DNA of 64,000 nucleotides from Oceanihabitans sp. IOP_32. Its GTDB lineage: Bacteria; Bacteroidota; Bacteroidia; Flavobacteriales; Flavobacteriaceae. The stretch is taken from contig NZ_CP040813.1 in the NCBI RefSeq assembly GCF_009498295.1, positions 1,557,001 to 1,621,000 of the forward strand. Reading direction: 5' to 3'. The translations under genes and the position numbers were made by a program. A model generated the notes under the pieces. That model was not told the origin of the DNA and did not search any database. It worked only from the letters and a program-made list of their open reading frames with translations. Positions 55,675 through 64,000 of the stretch are shown piece after piece (the stretch's first letter is position 1; the number at the start of each line of letters is the position of its first letter).

Positions 55675-55809
55675 ACTATATAACAATGTATAACCGCAAT
55701 TACGGCGGATTCGACTACGTCCGAATCCACTCGGAATTGCTAACGTCAGTGCTAAACCGAAAAATTTGCGTACTTTAACCCGTAACTGACGGTTATACGA
55801 GACCGTTGT
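55675..55809 (+). repeat. cassette-type nested palindrome 1 (attC-like)
   Basis: Left arm AACAATGTATAACCG (55682-55696) faces CGGTTATAC-GAGACC-GTTGT (55790-55809). An inner hairpin is made of GCAATT/AATTGC and GGATTCG/CGAATCC. The left ~70 bases are almost identical to the element at 58665. The core GTTGTGTTTC that closes it (55805-55814) opens the next unit and reappears inverted at 57835-57845. Confidence 0.8.
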
Positions 55810-55839: not shown

Positions 55840-57828
55840 ATGATAGTAGAATTTCTTGGACAAGGTTTACACTTCGAAGAAGATGAAACGTGCGGAAATC
55901 ACGTTTGTTCTGCTATTCAAGAAAAGTCATTCACGCAAATTACCTTTTTTATTGCTTTTTTGAGAAAACCCGGTTTAGACTATTTAAAACCTTTTTTAGA
56001 ACAAGCAAAAAATGAAAACAGAAACATAACTTTTTATGTCGGAATTGATGAAAGAGTTACTTCTAAAGAAGCTTTAGAATTATTACTCGAACTAGAAATT
56101 GAAACTTACATCTACTTTTCTGAAAGGTTTATCTATCACCCAAAAGTTTATTTGTTTGAGGGAGAAAAAAACAGAATCATAACTGGCTCATCTAATCTCA
56201 CAAAATCAGGACTTTTCTACAACGTTGAGTCTTCAATTCTTTTAGATTTCACAAATAGCGATAAAAGTGGATTAAAAGTTTTGAAACAATTAAAAGAATT
56301 CTATTCCACGTTATTAGATTTCACAGACCCAAATATTGAACTTTTAACGAATGAATATTTAGAAAAGTTAATTAAGGAACAAAGAGTTTCGACAGAAGCT
56401 TTTTCTGATGGTTCTGACTATAATTCAAATATTCACGACAAATCAAAAAAGAGAGGCAGAAATCCAGAAATTACAGATTTAGGAAATATTGAAATAACAG
56501 AAAAAAGACCTGTCAAACAATATAAATCCATATTGAAAATCACAGATGAATATCTAGAGAAATGGGATTTTATGTTCCTAAAAATGGAACGCTTTTATAC
56601 AGAAAATGAACATTGTACTGTTCCGAGAGATTATAAAGACAGAACACTTTATGGATGGTATAGGAAACAAAAATCATTACACCAAGCCGAATTATTACCT
56701 GATGAGCATTTCAAAAAATTAAAAAGCATAAATTTCTATTTTGGAGATGGACATACAATATTTTGGGATAGAAAATGGATGAATAGCTACAATCAACTTT
56801 TAGAAATATATAAAGAGACTGGAGATAGCAATATAAAAAGATATAAAGATAATACTCATCCTCTTTTTTACATTTCTAATTGGGTTGCACTCGAGAGAGG
56901 AAAATATAAAAAAGGCAAGCTAAAAGATTGGCAAATTGAAAAGTTGGAAAGCATTGGTTTTAAATGGGTAATGACACGTACACCAAATAATTACAGAGTT
57001 GTAGATGATTGGTTAGACAAACTTGCATTACTAGAAGACTATAAAAAAGAATTCGGAGATTGTAACGTTTCTCAAAATAACAAAAACCCAAAATACAAAG
57101 GACTCGGAAAGTGGCTTAATGACCAAAGGTTCAACTATAAGAAAAAAAGAAAAATCCTAACAAAGGAGAGAATCGAACTTCTTGAAGACCTTGGTGTAGT
57201 ATGGGATATGGATGTTTACAAATTTGACCAAAAAATATTAGAATTATTAGAATACAAAAAGACACACGGAAATTTTGAAGTTCCTTCTAACTACAAACCA
57301 AACAAGAATTTTGGGAATTATATTTATAGAATAAGAACGAAAGGTCTTAAAGAAGATTGGAAAATCAAAAAACTACAAGACATAGGATTCTTTGAAATTG
57401 GTACTCGAACTAAAAAGGAAAAAGAGGGACACGTTACTCAAAATTGGTATAATAATCTTGAAAAACTGAAAAAACTATCGAATCCTAATTTGCCAAAAGA
57501 CAGTAAAGAATATCCCAAACTTGCTAAATGGTTGCATAATCAAAAAAGAACTTTTAGATATGGCAGATTGAAAGATGAACAAATAAAAGAGTTGAAAAAA
57601 CTAAATGTAAAACTTCCTGCAAAAAGTAAAAAAAGAAAAAAATGGGAAGAATATATTGAAATTATTGAGTTATTCAGAGAGGAATATGGAGACAAAAAAA
57701 TAACATCTGAATTTGATAAAGAACTTTACGAATGGATAAACCAACAGAGAGCAAATTATAAACACAAGAGTTTAAGACTTGAAAAAGTAGAAAAATTAAA
57801 GGAATTGAATATCTTACAAACTGAATAA
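55840..57828 (+). CDS. PLD-domain protein with six helicase-associated repeats
   Basis: 662 aa. Residues ~1-160 are a phospholipase-D/HKD nuclease-like domain with HPKVYLF (His100, Lys102) and ITGSSNLTKSGLFYNVES (about 114-131). A ~70-residue charged linker follows, then six Helicase-associated (HA) repeats at about 241-299, 309-375, 389-455, 462-517, 534-592 and 601-657. Each has an aromatic start (W/Y at the repeat head), a middle LGKWLNDQR-type segment and an IxKLxxIGF end. HA repeats normally follow an SF2 motor; no motor is present here, so the repeats probably serve as DNA-binding arms for the nuclease-like head. It is the sole gene of a cassette-like unit (55805-57845). Likely defence-related by architecture; not proven. 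Confidence 0.85.
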   Translation: MIVEFLGQGLHFEEDETCGNHVCSAIQEKSFTQITFFIAFLRKPGLDYLKPFLEQAKNENRNITFYVGIDERVTSKEALELLLELEIETYIYFSERFIYHPKVYLFEGEKNRIITGSSNLTKSGLFYNVESSILLDFTNSDKSGLKVLKQLKEFYSTLLDFTDPNIELLTNEYLEKLIKEQRVSTEAFSDGSDYNSNIHDKSKKRGRNPEITDLGNIEITEKRPVKQYKSILKITDEYLEKWDFMFLKMERFYTENEHCTVPRDYKDRTLYGWYRKQKSLHQAELLPDEHFKKLKSINFYFGDGHTIFWDRKWMNSYNQLLEIYKETGDSNIKRYKDNTHPLFYISNWVALERGKYKKGKLKDWQIEKLESIGFKWVMTRTPNNYRVVDDWLDKLALLEDYKKEFGDCNVSQNNKNPKYKGLGKWLNDQRFNYKKKRKILTKERIELLEDLGVVWDMDVYKFDQKILELLEYKKTHGNFEVPSNYKPNKNFGNYIYRIRTKGLKEDWKIKKLQDIGFFEIGTRTKKEKEGHVTQNWYNNLEKLKKLSNPNLPKDSKEYPKLAKWLHNQKRTFRYGRLKDEQIKELKKLNVKLPAKSKKRKKWEEYIEIIELFREEYGDKKITSEFDKELYEWINQQRANYKHKSLRLEKVEKLKELNILQTE

Positions 57829-58654: not shown

Positions 58655-58664
58655 AAAACGTTTT

Positions 58665-58793
58665 ACAACAATGTATAACCGCAATTACGGCGGATTCGAC
58701 TACGTCCGAATCCACTCGGAATTGCTAACGCCAGTTCTTAACCGAAAATTTTTAACTTTAATCCCGTAACTGACGGTTATACAAAACCGTTGT
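58665..58793 (+). repeat. cassette-type nested palindrome 3 (attC-like)
   Basis: ACAACAATGTATAACCG faces CGGTTATAC-AAAACC-GTTGT (ending 58793), with the same inner hairpin as element 1 (GGATTCG/CGAATCC). It starts 10 bases after the stop codon of the exported protein. The core opening the next unit is GTTGTATGCA (58789-58798). Confidence 0.85.
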
Positions 58794-59044
58794 ATGCAAG
58801 GCTAAAAGACCGAATCGAAAATCGAAACCCGATTATAAAAATTGAAAAACTGGAAAGTAAATATCGTCACATTGATTGAAAGTTGGTGCAAGAAAAATTT
58901 AGTTTTTGCCCCCGCGCTTCTGCCCTTCGGGACAGTTAGGGAAGCCCACGCACATTGCACACATTTGCAAATCGCACAGGCTAACGCACAAACCAAAATT
59001 TGCAAAAGAGTGCAATTTTTGCCAACGCTCAAAAAGAATCGCAC

Positions 59045-62000
59045 ATGAGAGATTTTGAGGTTTGGAAATCATATATAGATGCTTTAGATATACTGACTAA
59101 TCAATATTCAGAGCCCTTCGACATTAAGGTATTGGAGGCTAAGAATGATTCGTCTGTTGTTTGTAGATATATTGATGCCAATCAGAAGGATAAAATATTT
59201 GAAGGTTTATTAAAGGTATTTCCAAGTTTAAAGAAAGAGAATCTTAATTATCATGATAACCACCTTTTATATCCATCATCCGAGGCAATAAATAATTCTG
59301 AAATTGAGGATTTAAAGTCCTTTGCTGATTCAAACCATTTTGAATTTTCATCAAAGCCAGCTTTCTCGGGAACTTTCAAATATAATAAGACACCTTTAAT
59401 TGATTTTTTAAAAGAACATGTCGTAAAAGAAGAAGCTCAACCACAAGAGAAGACTTTAGCCCATCACATTAGAAGAGTTTATCCTAGCTCCACATATAAG
59501 GAGAAAAACAATGGGAAAATTGTGGTATTGGATGAAACCTATCTTCAAAGTAAAACACTAGAGGTATGGGGCGAAAACTATTCTGTTGAATACTTACTTT
59601 CTGTAAAAGGAATTTCAACACCAATCCAAATTTCACTTGCTTCCGATAAGGTTGTAGATATCACTCATTCCAAGAAAAGAAACAAGATTAATGTCAGGCT
59701 ACACGAGAAAATTAGTGAAGCTGAAATAGGAGAAATTAGAACAAAGCTAATTGAAATATTAAATGATGAAATTGGTAGGGTTCCCGAAATAAGTCTCAAT
59801 ACTGTTTTTACCCAAACTAATTTTAGTAGTCAGCCTAGAACAAAAAAAGTACCGGTAAAACAAAATCTTGGTAAAACCCAATTTCTAACACTCGATGAAT
59901 TAGAAAATATTGATTCAGTACTGGAATCTAGTCAAGACGTTTTTAGAGAAGAAAACCTAGGTGCTATCTCAAAAATTGACGTTAGTGAAAGCTTTATAAA
60001 TAAGCAATTTGATATTGCAGTAAAGTATCTAAAGGAACATATTGGATTAGATCCTTACAAGGTAGAAGGTTTCTTTAAGCAAATCCATTTAAAGGATGTA
60101 TTTCTAAAAAAGGAAGTGTTTGAAGCTTTTCAGGAAAACACCTTCTATTCAAATTCATTTCATCTCGTTTCTTATACAATTACTCCGGATGAATTTGACA
60201 AATTTGAACAGATTAGAAAACAAAGAAAGATCTATTACAAATCTGAAGACAGACCTAATCTTGAAGGTGTAATATTACCAAATCCAGATAACAATATTTT
60301 CATCCAAACCTTTTCTGCATCCATTTCATTAAGTGACTTGCAATTTGAAATCTTCTTTTTTCTAAATACCCTCAAACGATATTTTGGAAAAGAACATATA
60401 CAGATTGTTCATGAACACATTTTTAGAATTGATAAACAAAGGTTCTTCGAACATATTAAAGAAGTTATTCCTTTTGAAGAATTTCAAATAAGTTCAGATG
60501 CAGAGACTATTTCATTCGATTTTAAAACGAAGGAGGAACTAGATGAAAAACTACAAAAGTTAGACACATATGATTCTTTGAACTATTTAGGCTTTAGAGA
60601 CGATCACAAATACAAAGTAACTTTTGGCAACATCACTCCATTAGTCCAAGTCAAGGAAAAATTGGATGAGTTAGTTTTTGTCAAATCGGCATTAAATGAA
60701 TCTAGAAACGAATTACGGGTTTTTGGTTTAATGAGGACACTTGATGACTTAGAAATTTTTAAAGCTAGAATCATTAACTCCGCAGGAAATTATAGCGAAA
60801 AAAATATCACTTTAAACTGGGAAAGTTTAGATGAAGGTTACTTAAAATACTACTTCCAATTTGATGAGGAAAGTTACAAGGAGGAGGTACATAAAAAGTT
60901 AGACAATCTTAGAGGTGAACCATTAACTCTTGTTGATTCAAAGGAGACTTTGGGTATTTTAAAATCCATTTCATATCCCAACTTGACTATTCTAGCAGAA
61001 GAGAAAAGCCTTCTTGAAGAAGGGTCTTATCTAACAGTTAAAAGTGCCTTAAAGGGAGAAAAAGATAAAGTGAAGCGATTAAGAGATGCTGTTGAGAAAA
61101 TATATTCTGATTCAGGAAACTCAATTTGCAACAAGAATCTTAAACAAGCCTTGATTGATTCATCCTCATTGGAATCTTTTATTGATGGAGACATTACTCG
61201 TACTAAAGAATACCAGGAATTATATCAAAAGGTAAATGGTGACTTATTAAGTCCTTATGTCAATGAAAGACAAAAGGAAGCGATCGTAAAATGTTTATTA
61301 AGCGATGATTTATTTATTGTTCAAGGACCACCAGGAACCGGTAAATCAACTGCTATTGCAGAACTTATTTGGCAACATTTAGCACATGATGAAAGCGATA
61401 AACGATACAGGATATTAGTTACTTCTGAAACCAACTTAGCCGTTGATAATGCATTGGATAAGCTCAGAAGTAAGTCACACCTGTTAATGAAACCTATACG
61501 ATTTGGTAGCGAGGAAAAACTTGACGATGAAGGAAGAAGATTTTCTTTGGAAGCGATTAACTACTGGAAAAATGATGAATGGGAAGCTGATAGTTCTTTA
61601 ATTTTAGATGACTGGGTTGATATCGTTAATAACCGGTGCACAAACCAAAGTAACGATACGTTTATTACACTTTGGAAGGAGCATTTAGAAGAGAAAGGAA
61701 AAGATCTTAGAGATAATTTCTATTCTTCTTATGTGAAGAACTGTAACGTAATTGGAGCTACTTGTAGTTCAATTGGGAAAATAAATTCTGAAGGTAAGTT
61801 TACTCGGTTTTTTCAAGATTACTCCAATGTTTTTTATCCTGATGAGTTTGAGAGATTTAAGTCCTCTCCAAGTAGGTCGTCTGCCACTAATCTTAAAAAC
61901 AAAGAGATTGAATTTGAATTAGCTATTCAGGATGAGGCTTCTAAGGCTTCTCCGCCCGAATTGGCACTCCCTTTCACCTTTGGGAAAAAAGCTGTGATTA

Positions 62001-62959
62001 TTGGAGATCATAGGCAATTACCTCCAATGGTTGATACCAACGAGTTTATCGAAAGTTTGGTTTATCTAAAGAATAAAAGCAAGGACGATAAACAAGTAAA
62101 GAAAATCACCGAGCTTATTCGCTTTATAAAGCAGCATAGAGAAAGTTTTGAGCATTCACACTTTGAAAAACTCTTTACAAATATTGATGCTAATCTCAAA
62201 TCAACATTCGATACTCAGTATAGGATGCATCCAGCCATTAATGAAACTATCAAACAATTCTATAAAGGTGATTTCGAGAATGGAAAAGATTTAGAATGTG
62301 GACTTCCATCGGATTCTGTGGATGATCCGAATCTCAACAACCCAATGTCTAGATACCACGGTATCACTAAGAAAAAGGATACGCACGTAATGTGGTTTGA
62401 TGTACAAACTCCGGAAATTAAGAAAGGGACAAGTAGAATCAATCCTGGAGAAGTTAAAGCAATTGAATGGATAATTAATACCATAACTTCAAATGATAAT
62501 TATTCAACATTCATCAATCATTGGAAAGAGAATGAGAAGGATCAAAAGGAATTAGGTGTTATTACTTTTTATGGTGCTCAAGCCGGGCTAATAAAGAAAA
62601 ATGTTCCTGAAGGTATTGATGTTAGAGTGTCTCCTGTTGATAGATTTCAAGGAATGGAGAGAAATATCGTCATAGTATCTCTTGTAAGAAGTAATAATAT
62701 CGCTGAATCAGAAAATGTAATAGCAGATTTTGAGATGTATCCTGAAAATGGGTATGCACAAAATGAAAGTCTTGGTTTTGCTGAATCTCCTAATAGATTA
62801 AACGTTGCCCTTTCCAGAGCTAAACGTCTTTTAATCGTGGTTGGAAATTCTAAACATTTCAGTAAAAAGGAAATCTATAAGAATGTTTTTGAAACAATAA
62901 AGAATCATCCTCAAGGAGAAGTTTGGGGCTTTAATGGTCAAAAACCTATTAAAATTTAG
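59045..62959 (+). CDS. large SF1 (Upf1/AAA_11-12 type) DNA/RNA helicase
   Basis: 1304 aa from the ATG at 59045; the ATG 45 bases upstream is unlikely. The N-terminal ~750 residues are unassigned alpha/beta. The helicase core follows: Walker A IVQGPPGTGKSTAIAEL near residue 761, ETNLAVDNALDKLR (motif Ia), IQDEASKASPPELALPF (motif II, about 960), IIGDHRQLPPM (motif III), STFDTQYRMHPAINE (motif IV), SPVDRFQGMERNIVIVSLVRS (motif V) and NRLNVALSRAKRLLIVVGN (motif VI). All motor motifs are intact. The ~250-base leader (58794-59044) is GC-richer than its surroundings and has no gene. One base separates it from the downstream gene, so the two form a pair; defence role inferred from context. Confidence 0.88.
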   Translation: MRDFEVWKSYIDALDILTNQYSEPFDIKVLEAKNDSSVVCRYIDANQKDKIFEGLLKVFPSLKKENLNYHDNHLLYPSSEAINNSEIEDLKSFADSNHFEFSSKPAFSGTFKYNKTPLIDFLKEHVVKEEAQPQEKTLAHHIRRVYPSSTYKEKNNGKIVVLDETYLQSKTLEVWGENYSVEYLLSVKGISTPIQISLASDKVVDITHSKKRNKINVRLHEKISEAEIGEIRTKLIEILNDEIGRVPEISLNTVFTQTNFSSQPRTKKVPVKQNLGKTQFLTLDELENIDSVLESSQDVFREENLGAISKIDVSESFINKQFDIAVKYLKEHIGLDPYKVEGFFKQIHLKDVFLKKEVFEAFQENTFYSNSFHLVSYTITPDEFDKFEQIRKQRKIYYKSEDRPNLEGVILPNPDNNIFIQTFSASISLSDLQFEIFFFLNTLKRYFGKEHIQIVHEHIFRIDKQRFFEHIKEVIPFEEFQISSDAETISFDFKTKEELDEKLQKLDTYDSLNYLGFRDDHKYKVTFGNITPLVQVKEKLDELVFVKSALNESRNELRVFGLMRTLDDLEIFKARIINSAGNYSEKNITLNWESLDEGYLKYYFQFDEESYKEEVHKKLDNLRGEPLTLVDSKETLGILKSISYPNLTILAEEKSLLEEGSYLTVKSALKGEKDKVKRLRDAVEKIYSDSGNSICNKNLKQALIDSSSLESFIDGDITRTKEYQELYQKVNGDLLSPYVNERQKEAIVKCLLSDDLFIVQGPPGTGKSTAIAELIWQHLAHDESDKRYRILVTSETNLAVDNALDKLRSKSHLLMKPIRFGSEEKLDDEGRRFSLEAINYWKNDEWEADSSLILDDWVDIVNNRCTNQSNDTFITLWKEHLEEKGKDLRDNFYSSYVKNCNVIGATCSSIGKINSEGKFTRFFQDYSNVFYPDEFERFKSSPSRSSATNLKNKEIEFELAIQDEASKASPPELALPFTFGKKAVIIGDHRQLPPMVDTNEFIESLVYLKNKSKDDKQVKKITELIRFIKQHRESFEHSHFEKLFTNIDANLKSTFDTQYRMHPAINETIKQFYKGDFENGKDLECGLPSDSVDDPNLNNPMSRYHGITKKKDTHVMWFDVQTPEIKKGTSRINPGEVKAIEWIINTITSNDNYSTFINHWKENEKDQKELGVITFYGAQAGLIKKNVPEGIDVRVSPVDRFQGMERNIVIVSLVRSNNIAESENVIADFEMYPENGYAQNESLGFAESPNRLNVALSRAKRLLIVVGNSKHFSKKEIYKNVFETIKNHPQGEVWGFNGQKPIKI

Positions 62960-62960
62960 T

Positions 62961-64000
62961 ATGCAAAGTATTTCTATCATTGAGCCAATAAAAATTAGAC
63001 TTAGGAGATATAAGAGTCTTTTTAGGCGTGCTTTGCCTTTGGAAAAACATGAGAAGGCAATTTTAGGATTGATTTACCAAAATAATGGTGATTATGGATT
63101 CAGTGAGCTCGGTACTGTTTTAGGATTTGCTGTTGAAGATAATCCAGAACTTCAAGTGCGAAAAGATGTTGCAGAAATACAACTATTTGAATCATACCTT
63201 GAAAACCTAAAGTCCAATGATTTGATCGACTACAACAACCAAAGTGTTCGATTAACTTTTTGGGGTGAGAAAGCAATAAATGACGATTGTAAATATTCGT
63301 TTTACTCAGGAAACCTTCAAATTCCGGAGTTTTTTGATATTGCGCTCTCTAATGAAGCATCTGATTTTACATTTAAAGAAATTGGTGTTGAAGTTAAATT
63401 AACAAATGAGCAGAATCTAAATAAGGCTTGGGACTTAGCCGAATTTGAAGCTCCAGACCCTAATCTCATCCACCAGTTCCATATGAATAGGTTTAATAAA
63501 AATGATGAGATAATATTCGATAATATTGAGCCACTATCAAACTTAGGGTTGATAGAGACATATTTAGAATTTTCAGAAAGAAACAGTTCTATTGAGGTTT
63601 TATATGAGTCTAAGCTTCATGAACAATTATCAAAGGAAATAAATAAAACTCCGAACACGTTAAAAGCGGATAATCTCAAATTAAAAATTAATTGTAAGAA
63701 ATTGGTTGAAGCCAAAGAAGCTTTTTTAATTGAAGATTTAGCTGATTTTATCGCAATTGTTGATTGGAGTATTGTTATTGAAAAACCAAATATTATATGG
63801 AACAATAGCTCTATTGGTTTTTTAGATAAATTTCAGGTCAATTGGAACCTAATAAGTTCAAAGGCTCCTGTCTCCATAATTCAAGATGCCATAGATGACT
63901 ATATTGATAAATTTGATTGGCTTGAAGTAACCAATCGTCTGAATCTTGAATTTATACTTGCAAATATTGACAAGTATCCTTGGGATGTAGATGTTTTAAC
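62961..64000 (+). CDS. partner protein with repeated W-rich motif (3' end beyond window)
   Basis: At least 346 aa, open to the window end. Starts MQSISIIEPIKIRLRRYKSLFRRALPLEKHEKAILGLIYQ, with a winged-helix-like N-terminal part up to about residue 110 (SDLIDYNN-type wing, VRLTFWGEKAI). From about residue 255 a repeated pattern appears: hhDWSIVIEKPNIIWNNSSIGFLDKF, QVNWNLISSKAPVSII, FDWLEVTNRLNLEFILANIDKYPWD. This is the W-x-x-h(T/S) repeat seen in some long bacterial and viral repeat proteins. Co-transcribed with the helicase (one-base gap). Function unknown; the full length and number of repeats cannot be seen. Confidence 0.75.
   Translation, partial: MQSISIIEPIKIRLRRYKSLFRRALPLEKHEKAILGLIYQNNGDYGFSELGTVLGFAVEDNPELQVRKDVAEIQLFESYLENLKSNDLIDYNNQSVRLTFWGEKAINDDCKYSFYSGNLQIPEFFDIALSNEASDFTFKEIGVEVKLTNEQNLNKAWDLAEFEAPDPNLIHQFHMNRFNKNDEIIFDNIEPLSNLGLIETYLEFSERNSSIEVLYESKLHEQLSKEINKTPNTLKADNLKLKINCKKLVEAKEAFLIEDLADFIAIVDWSIVIEKPNIIWNNSSIGFLDKFQVNWNLISSKAPVSIIQDAIDDYIDKFDWLEVTNRLNLEFILANIDKYPWDVDVL

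Follow-up and report, generated by a model that had tools for sequence, protein, structure and literature searches.

The last five kilobases of a 64,000-nucleotide stretch of Oceanihabitans sp. IOP_32 DNA (contig NZ_CP040813.1, positions 1,557,001 to 1,621,000 of the forward strand; the whole stretch is referred to hereafter as the window) raise the question of what a 1304-residue helicase and the gene immediately behind it do together. An earlier, sequence-only reading had described this helicase as having a long unassigned N-terminus and a partner gene one base away, and both points hold: Pfam assigns no family N-terminal of ~aa 738, and the partner ATG at 62961 is one base past the helicase stop (62959). 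The source genome is a single contig of 3,475,698 bases, whose continuation beyond the window we took as L002 (window position = L002 position + 54000). The window edge truncates the partner after residue 347, and the remainder of its open reading frame (ORF), recovered from the same genome as that reading had proposed, extends it to 1939 residues that include a DarT and an HD domain. The locus is thus a three-gene operon (helicase / repeat-DarT-HD / macro), of which the window contains the helicase gene and the start of the partner (Table 1); alternative starts exist for the helicase (TTG at 59000, giving 1319 residues) and for the partner (an in-frame ATG at 62934, which would overlap the helicase). 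On balance, we consider it probable that this is a phage-defence operon, in which a helicase gates ADP-ribosylation by DarT and a macro-domain protein carries out the clean-up.

The second gene is predicted to encode a giant protein comprising a winged-helix-like start, a W-repeat solenoid, a DarT ADP-ribosyltransferase domain and an HD domain. The DarT assignment is supported at the level of fold in a model of the homologous segment from Sphingobacterium lumbrici (L020; predicted local distance difference test score, pLDDT, 83.3), which VIA matches to 7omv (Z 16.4, root-mean-square deviation 3.4, 190 residues aligned) and to DarT1 8baq (Z 13.8), and for which the six Foldseek matches at E<=0.001 are PDB DarT structures. 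A search of solved structures by sequence with the whole partner as query gave no match, and one with the DarT profile found 7omv at 3.3e-5. The same model shows a beta-sandwich, an HD fold whose best structural matches are 3wfr (Z 15.0) and GppA (Z 11.0), such that the HD domain may be a nuclease or a phosphohydrolase, and an alpha solenoid formed by the W repeats; no PDB fold is listed for this last part, which does not exclude one.

The repeated W pattern on which the sequence-only reading remarked is genuine for the protein as a whole, where the W-x-x-h-(S/T) motif occurs 16 times, where 2000 shuffles average 2.06 and reach 8 at most, with a spacing of 25–27 residues in the array, but it is marginal within residues 1–353 (two motifs against 0.25 expected, shuffle maximum 3), and the proof of the repeat therefore sits past the window edge. 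The winged-helix-like start fares similarly, in that library matches are weak (Pfam HTH_45, E 0.057; PADLOC WH_III-A, E 0.025), yet the segment is kept across the family in our own profiles, and the family hidden Markov model also matches a PIN-type partner (L093:8793-11015, E 2e-9). W repeats are also found beyond DarT proteins: a Pif1-like helicase of genome G335 carries them in its C-terminal half (L016:7972-10464, reverse strand; W3 profile, 1e-21), and tblastn matches to the W-repeat region occur on a Salinibacter plasmid (L012:11878-13218, 3e-9) and in gp559 of Bacillus phage G (L017:3848-4669, 7e-7), the latter of which could be a mimic, or simply the same repeat.

Sequence matches of the third gene (Pfam macro, 1.1e-17; PADLOC DarG, 5.6e-57; PDB 5m3i, 7.6e-33) point to a DarG-type macro domain, related to the DarG that reverses DarT. 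NCBIfam model NF048014 covers aa 3–147 only (1.5e-55, 188.8 bits versus a cut-off of 250), and hhalign gives the short tail that follows a probability of 0.2% against the C-terminal domain (~150 aa) of classical DarG, which it does not resemble; the tail contains a GIGxKTxEKxF motif, in our own reading helix-hairpin-helix-like. The first gene encodes a superfamily 1 (SF1) helicase of IGHMBP2/UPF1 type with all core motifs in place. Its Walker A (GPPGTGKS) and DEAS motifs are unchanged in 27/27 family members, as are the DarT QQE and H-x-x-H-x-x-N-A stretch in 36/36 (including five DarTs without W repeats), macro residues K79 and W82 in 33/33, and HDIGK in 14/14 HD domains. As these motifs are invariant in all four domains, the active sites look intact.

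Table 1. Positions of the genes and domains of the operon, in window or L002 coordinates.
Feature	Position	Strand	Extent	Remarks
SF1 helicase gene	window 59045-62959	+	1304 aa	ATG at 59045
Helicase N-terminal region	window 59045-61252	+	aa 1-736	predicted ferredoxin-like beta-alpha-beta chain
Helicase core, AAA_11 + AAA_12	window 61259-62854	+	aa 739-1270	Pfam 9.9e-33 and 4.3e-38
Partner gene, in-window part	window 62961-64000	+	1939 aa (whole ORF)	ATG 62961; whole ORF L002:8961-14780
Winged-helix-like segment	window 63048-63290	+	~aa 30-110	common to partners of related helicases
First W repeats	window 63765-64000	+	aa 269 onward	array continues past window to ~aa 1190
DarT domain	L002:12720-13355		partner aa 1254-1465	Pfam PF14487 2.3e-18; PADLOC DarT 7.7e-10
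HD domain	L002:14166-14777		partner aa 1736-1939	PADLOC and own profiles; HDIGK
DarG-like macro gene	L002:14771-15463		230 aa	overlaps partner end by 10 bp

The N-terminal half of the helicase is presumed to be its nucleic-acid-binding or sensor part. An AlphaFold2 model of this region (mean pLDDT 82.7) displays successive ferredoxin-like beta-alpha-beta modules; a known fold was considered and rejected, given that Foldseek against the PDB returned no match at E<=0.001 and that the best VIA match, to designed ferredoxin folds, reached a Z of 7.9 (below 8), leaving a ferredoxin-like arrangement only. The helicase as a whole is matched at 2.3e-97 by the PADLOC model for MkoA (PDLC03920), and this could suggest a Mokosh-like system, where phage RNA or RNA:DNA hybrids would be recognized by the helicase and RNA, rather than DNA, would be modified or destroyed by DarT and the HD/PIN partners. 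S1 domains lie N-terminal in some of the helicases (of five scanned, L033, L034, L035 and L042 have one in front and a Ppx/GppA domain behind, L040 does not) and recur in a linked S1-repeat protein, which is in keeping with an RNA target, as are the PIN_4 domains fused to HD in some loci and the linkage to a reverse transcriptase. We nevertheless regard this as quite unlikely, in that the best stretch of the MkoA match is the shared core (aa 949–1290), the partner has no MkoB match in PADLOC at E<=0.1, and the DarT fold is closest to the DNA-modifying, macro-linked DarT (the 7omv and 8baq matches above).

Conservation was assessed on 60 loci that a DarT-domain alignment (A3) retrieved in a single pass over 84,980 species genomes and that our own profiles sorted into 29 with an intact W-repeat DarT, one broken copy (L045), 26 classical and four other large DarT loci. 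Some of the 29 are clipped by contig ends and the gene of L032 is split; the helicase test was therefore made on loci with >1.5 kb upstream (5/29 dropped) and the macro test on those with at least 700 bases downstream (3/29 dropped). Where there is room, a helicase adjoins the W-repeat DarT in 24/24 loci and a macro gene lies 3′ of it in 26/26, so that the pairing proposed by the sequence-only reading stands, whereas its two-gene layout does not, the macro gene being a third member and the partner a DarT-HD protein. The helicase and DarT genes overlap or are at most 8 bases apart in 22 of the 24, the exceptions being L032 (963 bases, the winged-helix part forming a separate ORF) and L033 (228 bases). 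Distances between helicase cores and between DarT domains are also correlated (r 0.924 over 26 loci, 0/2000 permutations); conserved linkage and correlated distances together argue that the helicase and the W-repeat DarT act together.

Classical small-DarT loci present a different picture, with the family helicase in 0/26 (17 of these have >4.5 kb upstream) and a macro gene, detected in 25/26, that is upstream of DarT in 25/25. This arrangement bears on the reading of the operon as an enlarged DarTG toxin–antitoxin module for mobile-element maintenance or growth control, with the macro protein as antitoxin and the helicase as an accessory (e.g., in repair or unwinding), which we judge unlikely. 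A DarT with an adjacent macro protein is indeed a DarTG2 pair, and integrases are found near, for example, L035, L038 and L040 (by eye), with further copies on an IMG/VR contig (L107) and a plasmid (L011). The gene order, however, is the opposite of the classical one, the macro protein lacks the DarG C-terminal domain, every testable locus has the helicase, and two loci hold a W-repeat DarT with no adjoining macro gene. In one of the two, Hymenobacter plasmid NZ_CP043645 (L011), helicase and W-repeat DarT are followed by no macro gene within the next 4.3 kb; in the other (L043), the expected macro region is other sequence up to the contig end, taken for a transposon. A DarT that lacks a macro gene in L011, and apparently in L043, fits a gated rather than a constitutively toxic enzyme.

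The family is rare. Among 395 sampled Bacteroidota genomes, the W-repeat DarT profile matches four (the source genome, G130, G373 and G335) and the helicase profile four (G000, G130, G222 and G214), the full system being confined to the source genome and G130 (the same genome as L019, with the same ORFs, and as L014). Two of the four helicases accompany a W-repeat DarT and two lie in a Mokosh-related layout; none is in an evident housekeeping operon, the setting in which single homologues would have spoken against the sequence-only reading, and because the family occurs in just 4/395 genomes a housekeeping helicase was rejected. Such patchiness (W-repeat DarT with helicase in 2/395), together with copies on mobile contigs and inside BREX, makes it very improbable that the genes form a host DNA-repair or replication-restart operon using reversible DNA ADP-ribosylation as a signal, for all that a helicase combined with reversible ADP-ribosylation resembles damage signalling and that DarT is reported to serve growth control in M. 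tuberculosis (PMC12170906). On viral contigs, the DarT profile found one locus (L078, a classical-type pair) and the helicase profile gave 35 matches, of which L107 and L115 were annotated. Two family members, L025 (Desulfosporosinus) and L042 (Clostridia), are metagenome-assembled genomes whose labels may reflect mis-binning.

A defence-rich setting had also been proposed for the locus, and a scan of 20 neighbour proteins against PADLOC agrees with it to the extent that copies of the operon adjoin defence genes. These include BrxL and AbiLi-like genes at L040, PglZ and BrxL (BREX) at the broken copy L045, a DISARM-type DrmMI (seen in L014) with a UvrD helicase alongside at L019, a Druantia-like neighbour at L032, Argonaute directly before the helicase at L020 and L031, AbiP2 reverse transcriptase beside L034, L043 and L048, the last also with a type I restriction protein, and, at L047 (no W repeats), a type I methyltransferase with a PADLOC match. 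PADLOC gave no defence match for the S1-repeat proteins of L043, L044 and L048, nor for the HD-PIN genes of L023 and L031 except a weak Cas3-HD. The most complete row is that of the IMG/VR contig (L107:4269-17394), in which an AbiP2-like reverse transcriptase, an S1-repeat protein, helicase, W-repeat DarT and macro gene follow one another, with an integrase-like ORF upstream; the first two were named for their resemblance to proteins of L034 and L048. The L048 protein agrees in length and start, and a single strain may underlie both L107 and L048. Reverse transcriptase and S1-repeat protein are part of the operon in L107, L043 and L048. Argonaute was considered as an obligate component and rejected on the neighbourhood count given below, its adjacency being optional; one Argonaute neighbourhood (L143) has a weak SF1 match (6e-17).

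How might these parts work together? PMC11543638 reports that the macro-linked DarT type modifies thymidine in DNA and that DarTG protects against phages, and PMC12278908 that in Hachiman a sensor helicase restrains an effector. Gene order, domains, intact active-site motifs and conserved linkage are what the sequences show; combining thymidine chemistry, helicase-made single strands and Hachiman-like restraint, we propose that the ADP-ribosylation of invading DNA is under helicase control, and infer the sensing, gating, substrate, host repair and phage protection as follows. The helicase and the winged-helix/W-repeat arm would form a surveillance complex that keeps DarT inactive; on meeting foreign or replicating nucleic acid, the helicase would move, expose single strands and free DarT. 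The freed enzyme would then ADP-ribosylate bases in the exposed single-stranded DNA (thymidine, by analogy with DarT2), halting phage replication, whereas the macro protein, perhaps anchored to DNA via its tail, would strip ADP-ribose from host DNA. The HD domain may serve as an accessory second effector.

Several observations weigh against this proposal. Distances between DarT and macro domains correlate less well (r 0.605, 23 loci), and host relatedness contributes to both correlations; the 60-locus sample was drawn with two short peptide patterns and is incomplete. The defence neighbours were picked by eye, their enrichment lacks a control, and several loci (e.g., L026 and L050) are without obvious ones. 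Moreover, the Argonaute family of L020 and L031 occurs in 12/395 genomes, and of the nine neighbourhoods inspected (one of 3.9 kb only) none holds our helicase or W-repeat DarT (0/9). Finally, the helicase is nearest to IGHMBP2/MkoA types, with S1 domains in some members, and RNA could therefore be what is sensed or modified.

Comparison across loci indicates that the components are combined in more than one way. The HD domain, fused to the DarT protein in the window operon, is likewise fused behind DarT (as HD[IL]GK) in 11/29 W-repeat loci; L023, L029 and L031 encode it in a gene of its own (joined to PIN_4 in L023 and L031), L025 and L049 have it as a fusion with the macro protein, and none was detected in 13/29. 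In G222 (L093:5159-13261), a related helicase precedes a 740-aa winged-helix (2e-9)/PIN_4 partner, a ~210-aa protein and an IetA-like AAA ATPase. The row in G214 (L094:5523-14066) is alike, with an AAA ATPase and a ~210-aa protein, but its 754-aa partner matches MkoB (6.3e-7); both are four-gene Mokosh-related operons. The presence of winged-helix/PIN or MkoB-like partners beside related helicases suggests that effectors can be exchanged on a common platform of helicase and adaptor. Conversely, the DarT(-HD) and macro pair seems to take different sensors: DarT is joined to sacsin/HSP90-type ATPase domains in L015 (fused) and L077 (adjacent and fused), each with a macro gene next, and L047, grouped with these by likeness of length and layout only, is likewise followed by a macro gene. 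The macro protein of L015 (from G373, a sacsin-type DarT-HD with macro; G335 has W repeats only, on its Pif1-like helicase) is fused to an HsdM N-terminus, and a type I methyltransferase follows L047. At L037:8429-10927, DarT is fused to a Sel1-repeat protein and has a short macro gene behind it; the Sel1 part could be another sensor-like module on the same effector.

Taken further, the operon may represent an undescribed immunity class, in which a sensor helicase licenses a solenoid-borne DarT for reversible ADP-ribosylation of invading DNA and host DNA is cleaned by a macro protein whose tail is helix-hairpin-helix-like; in some lineages the helicase shares its operon with an S1-repeat protein and an AbiP2 reverse transcriptase, or stands behind Argonaute. 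Helicase and winged-helix adaptor would plug into DarT, PIN or MkoB-like effectors, and DarT-HD-macro into helicase or sacsin-type ATPase sensors. We advance this wider scheme tentatively.

The flanks of the operon are less regular. The sequence-only reading had placed the pair behind a cassette boundary, and a direct repeat of ~130 bp, 91% identical between its copies (~55679–55809 and ~58664–58793 in the window), does lie there; the repeat is real, is at most a candidate marker of recombination cassettes, and looks like either a cassette or a repeat family of the source genome. Its second copy forms the first ~130 bp of the spacer 5′ of the helicase, a further partial copy lies elsewhere in the genome (83%, 84 bp), and the end of the spacer (305–386 of the 390-bp query) is found four more times at 78–79% identity. 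Between the two copies are a 221-aa gene and a gene (window 55840-57828) whose product joins a PLD-like domain to six helicase-associated (HA) domains and has no helicase (Pfam HA 1.5e-63, PLDc_2 3e-7). Downstream, the macro gene is followed by genes for 208 and 129 aa, a reverse-strand ORF of 110 aa and sugar-metabolism genes (named by eye). The 208-aa protein (L002:15647-16273) has a weak MAE_28990-type HEPN match (5.6e-4, below cut-off), and its gene was not seen as a conserved part of the operon.

DarTG is known as a toxin–antitoxin pair, and here the same chemistry would sit inside a large helicase-coupled machine. If our proposal is correct, DNA ADP-ribosylation would be a gated immune effector, and the switching-on of DarT would become testable. 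Two features that Pfam leaves unassigned also come to light in the family, a W-repeat solenoid and a helicase N-terminus of tandem ferredoxin-like modules, and its loci point to modular exchange of sensors and effectors among helicase, sacsin-ATPase, PIN and DarT systems.

No PADLOC 2.0, NCBIfam 20 or Pfam model that we scanned describes the whole assembly, and in the literature, searched largely outside subscription journals and bioRxiv, such that absence from print is not established, we found no helicase-DarT-macro system. Of the known systems, DarTG2 shares the DarT domain, with its conserved motif and fold, and an adjacent DarG-type macro domain. Classical DarT, however, is free-standing (~200–350 aa) with the antitoxin gene first, whereas here DarT is embedded in a protein of 1.5–1.9 kaa (1939 aa in the window operon) behind a winged-helix and W-repeat solenoid and with an HD domain, an SF1 helicase lies in front of it wherever the locus can be tested, and the macro gene comes second, after DarT, without the DarG C-terminal domain (NF048014 below cut-off). 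Mokosh (MkoA/MkoB; MkoC) has in common an SF1 core related to that of MkoA and the order of helicase then partner gene, with L093 and L094 as bridging loci (the L094 partner matching MkoB). Mokosh type II carries a PLD domain fused to its helicase; in the operon described here there is no PLD family among the 17 Pfam matches of the helicase, the DarT partner has no MkoB match, and a macro gene is present.

Hachiman (HamAB) resembles the operon in its proposed logic, a sensor helicase that restrains and then releases a DNA-acting effector, but in PMC12278908 HamA is a nuclease and HamB is likened to Hel308/Ski2, whereas here the pair would be an ADP-ribosyltransferase and an SF1 helicase; the Hachiman models (HamA DUF1837, HamB) are absent from the PADLOC matches of helicase, partner and macro protein, and we use the system as a working analogy only. 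The sacsin/HSP90-ATPase-linked DarT loci (L015, L047, L077), for which we know of no name, share the DarT, which carries HD in two of the three, and have a macro gene of the same kind behind it; their sensor part, however, is a sacsin-type ATPase (L015, L077), and they lack both helicase and W repeats. The chemistry and the parts are known, then, whereas we know of no earlier account of the assembly, the modular wiring or the W-repeat solenoid.

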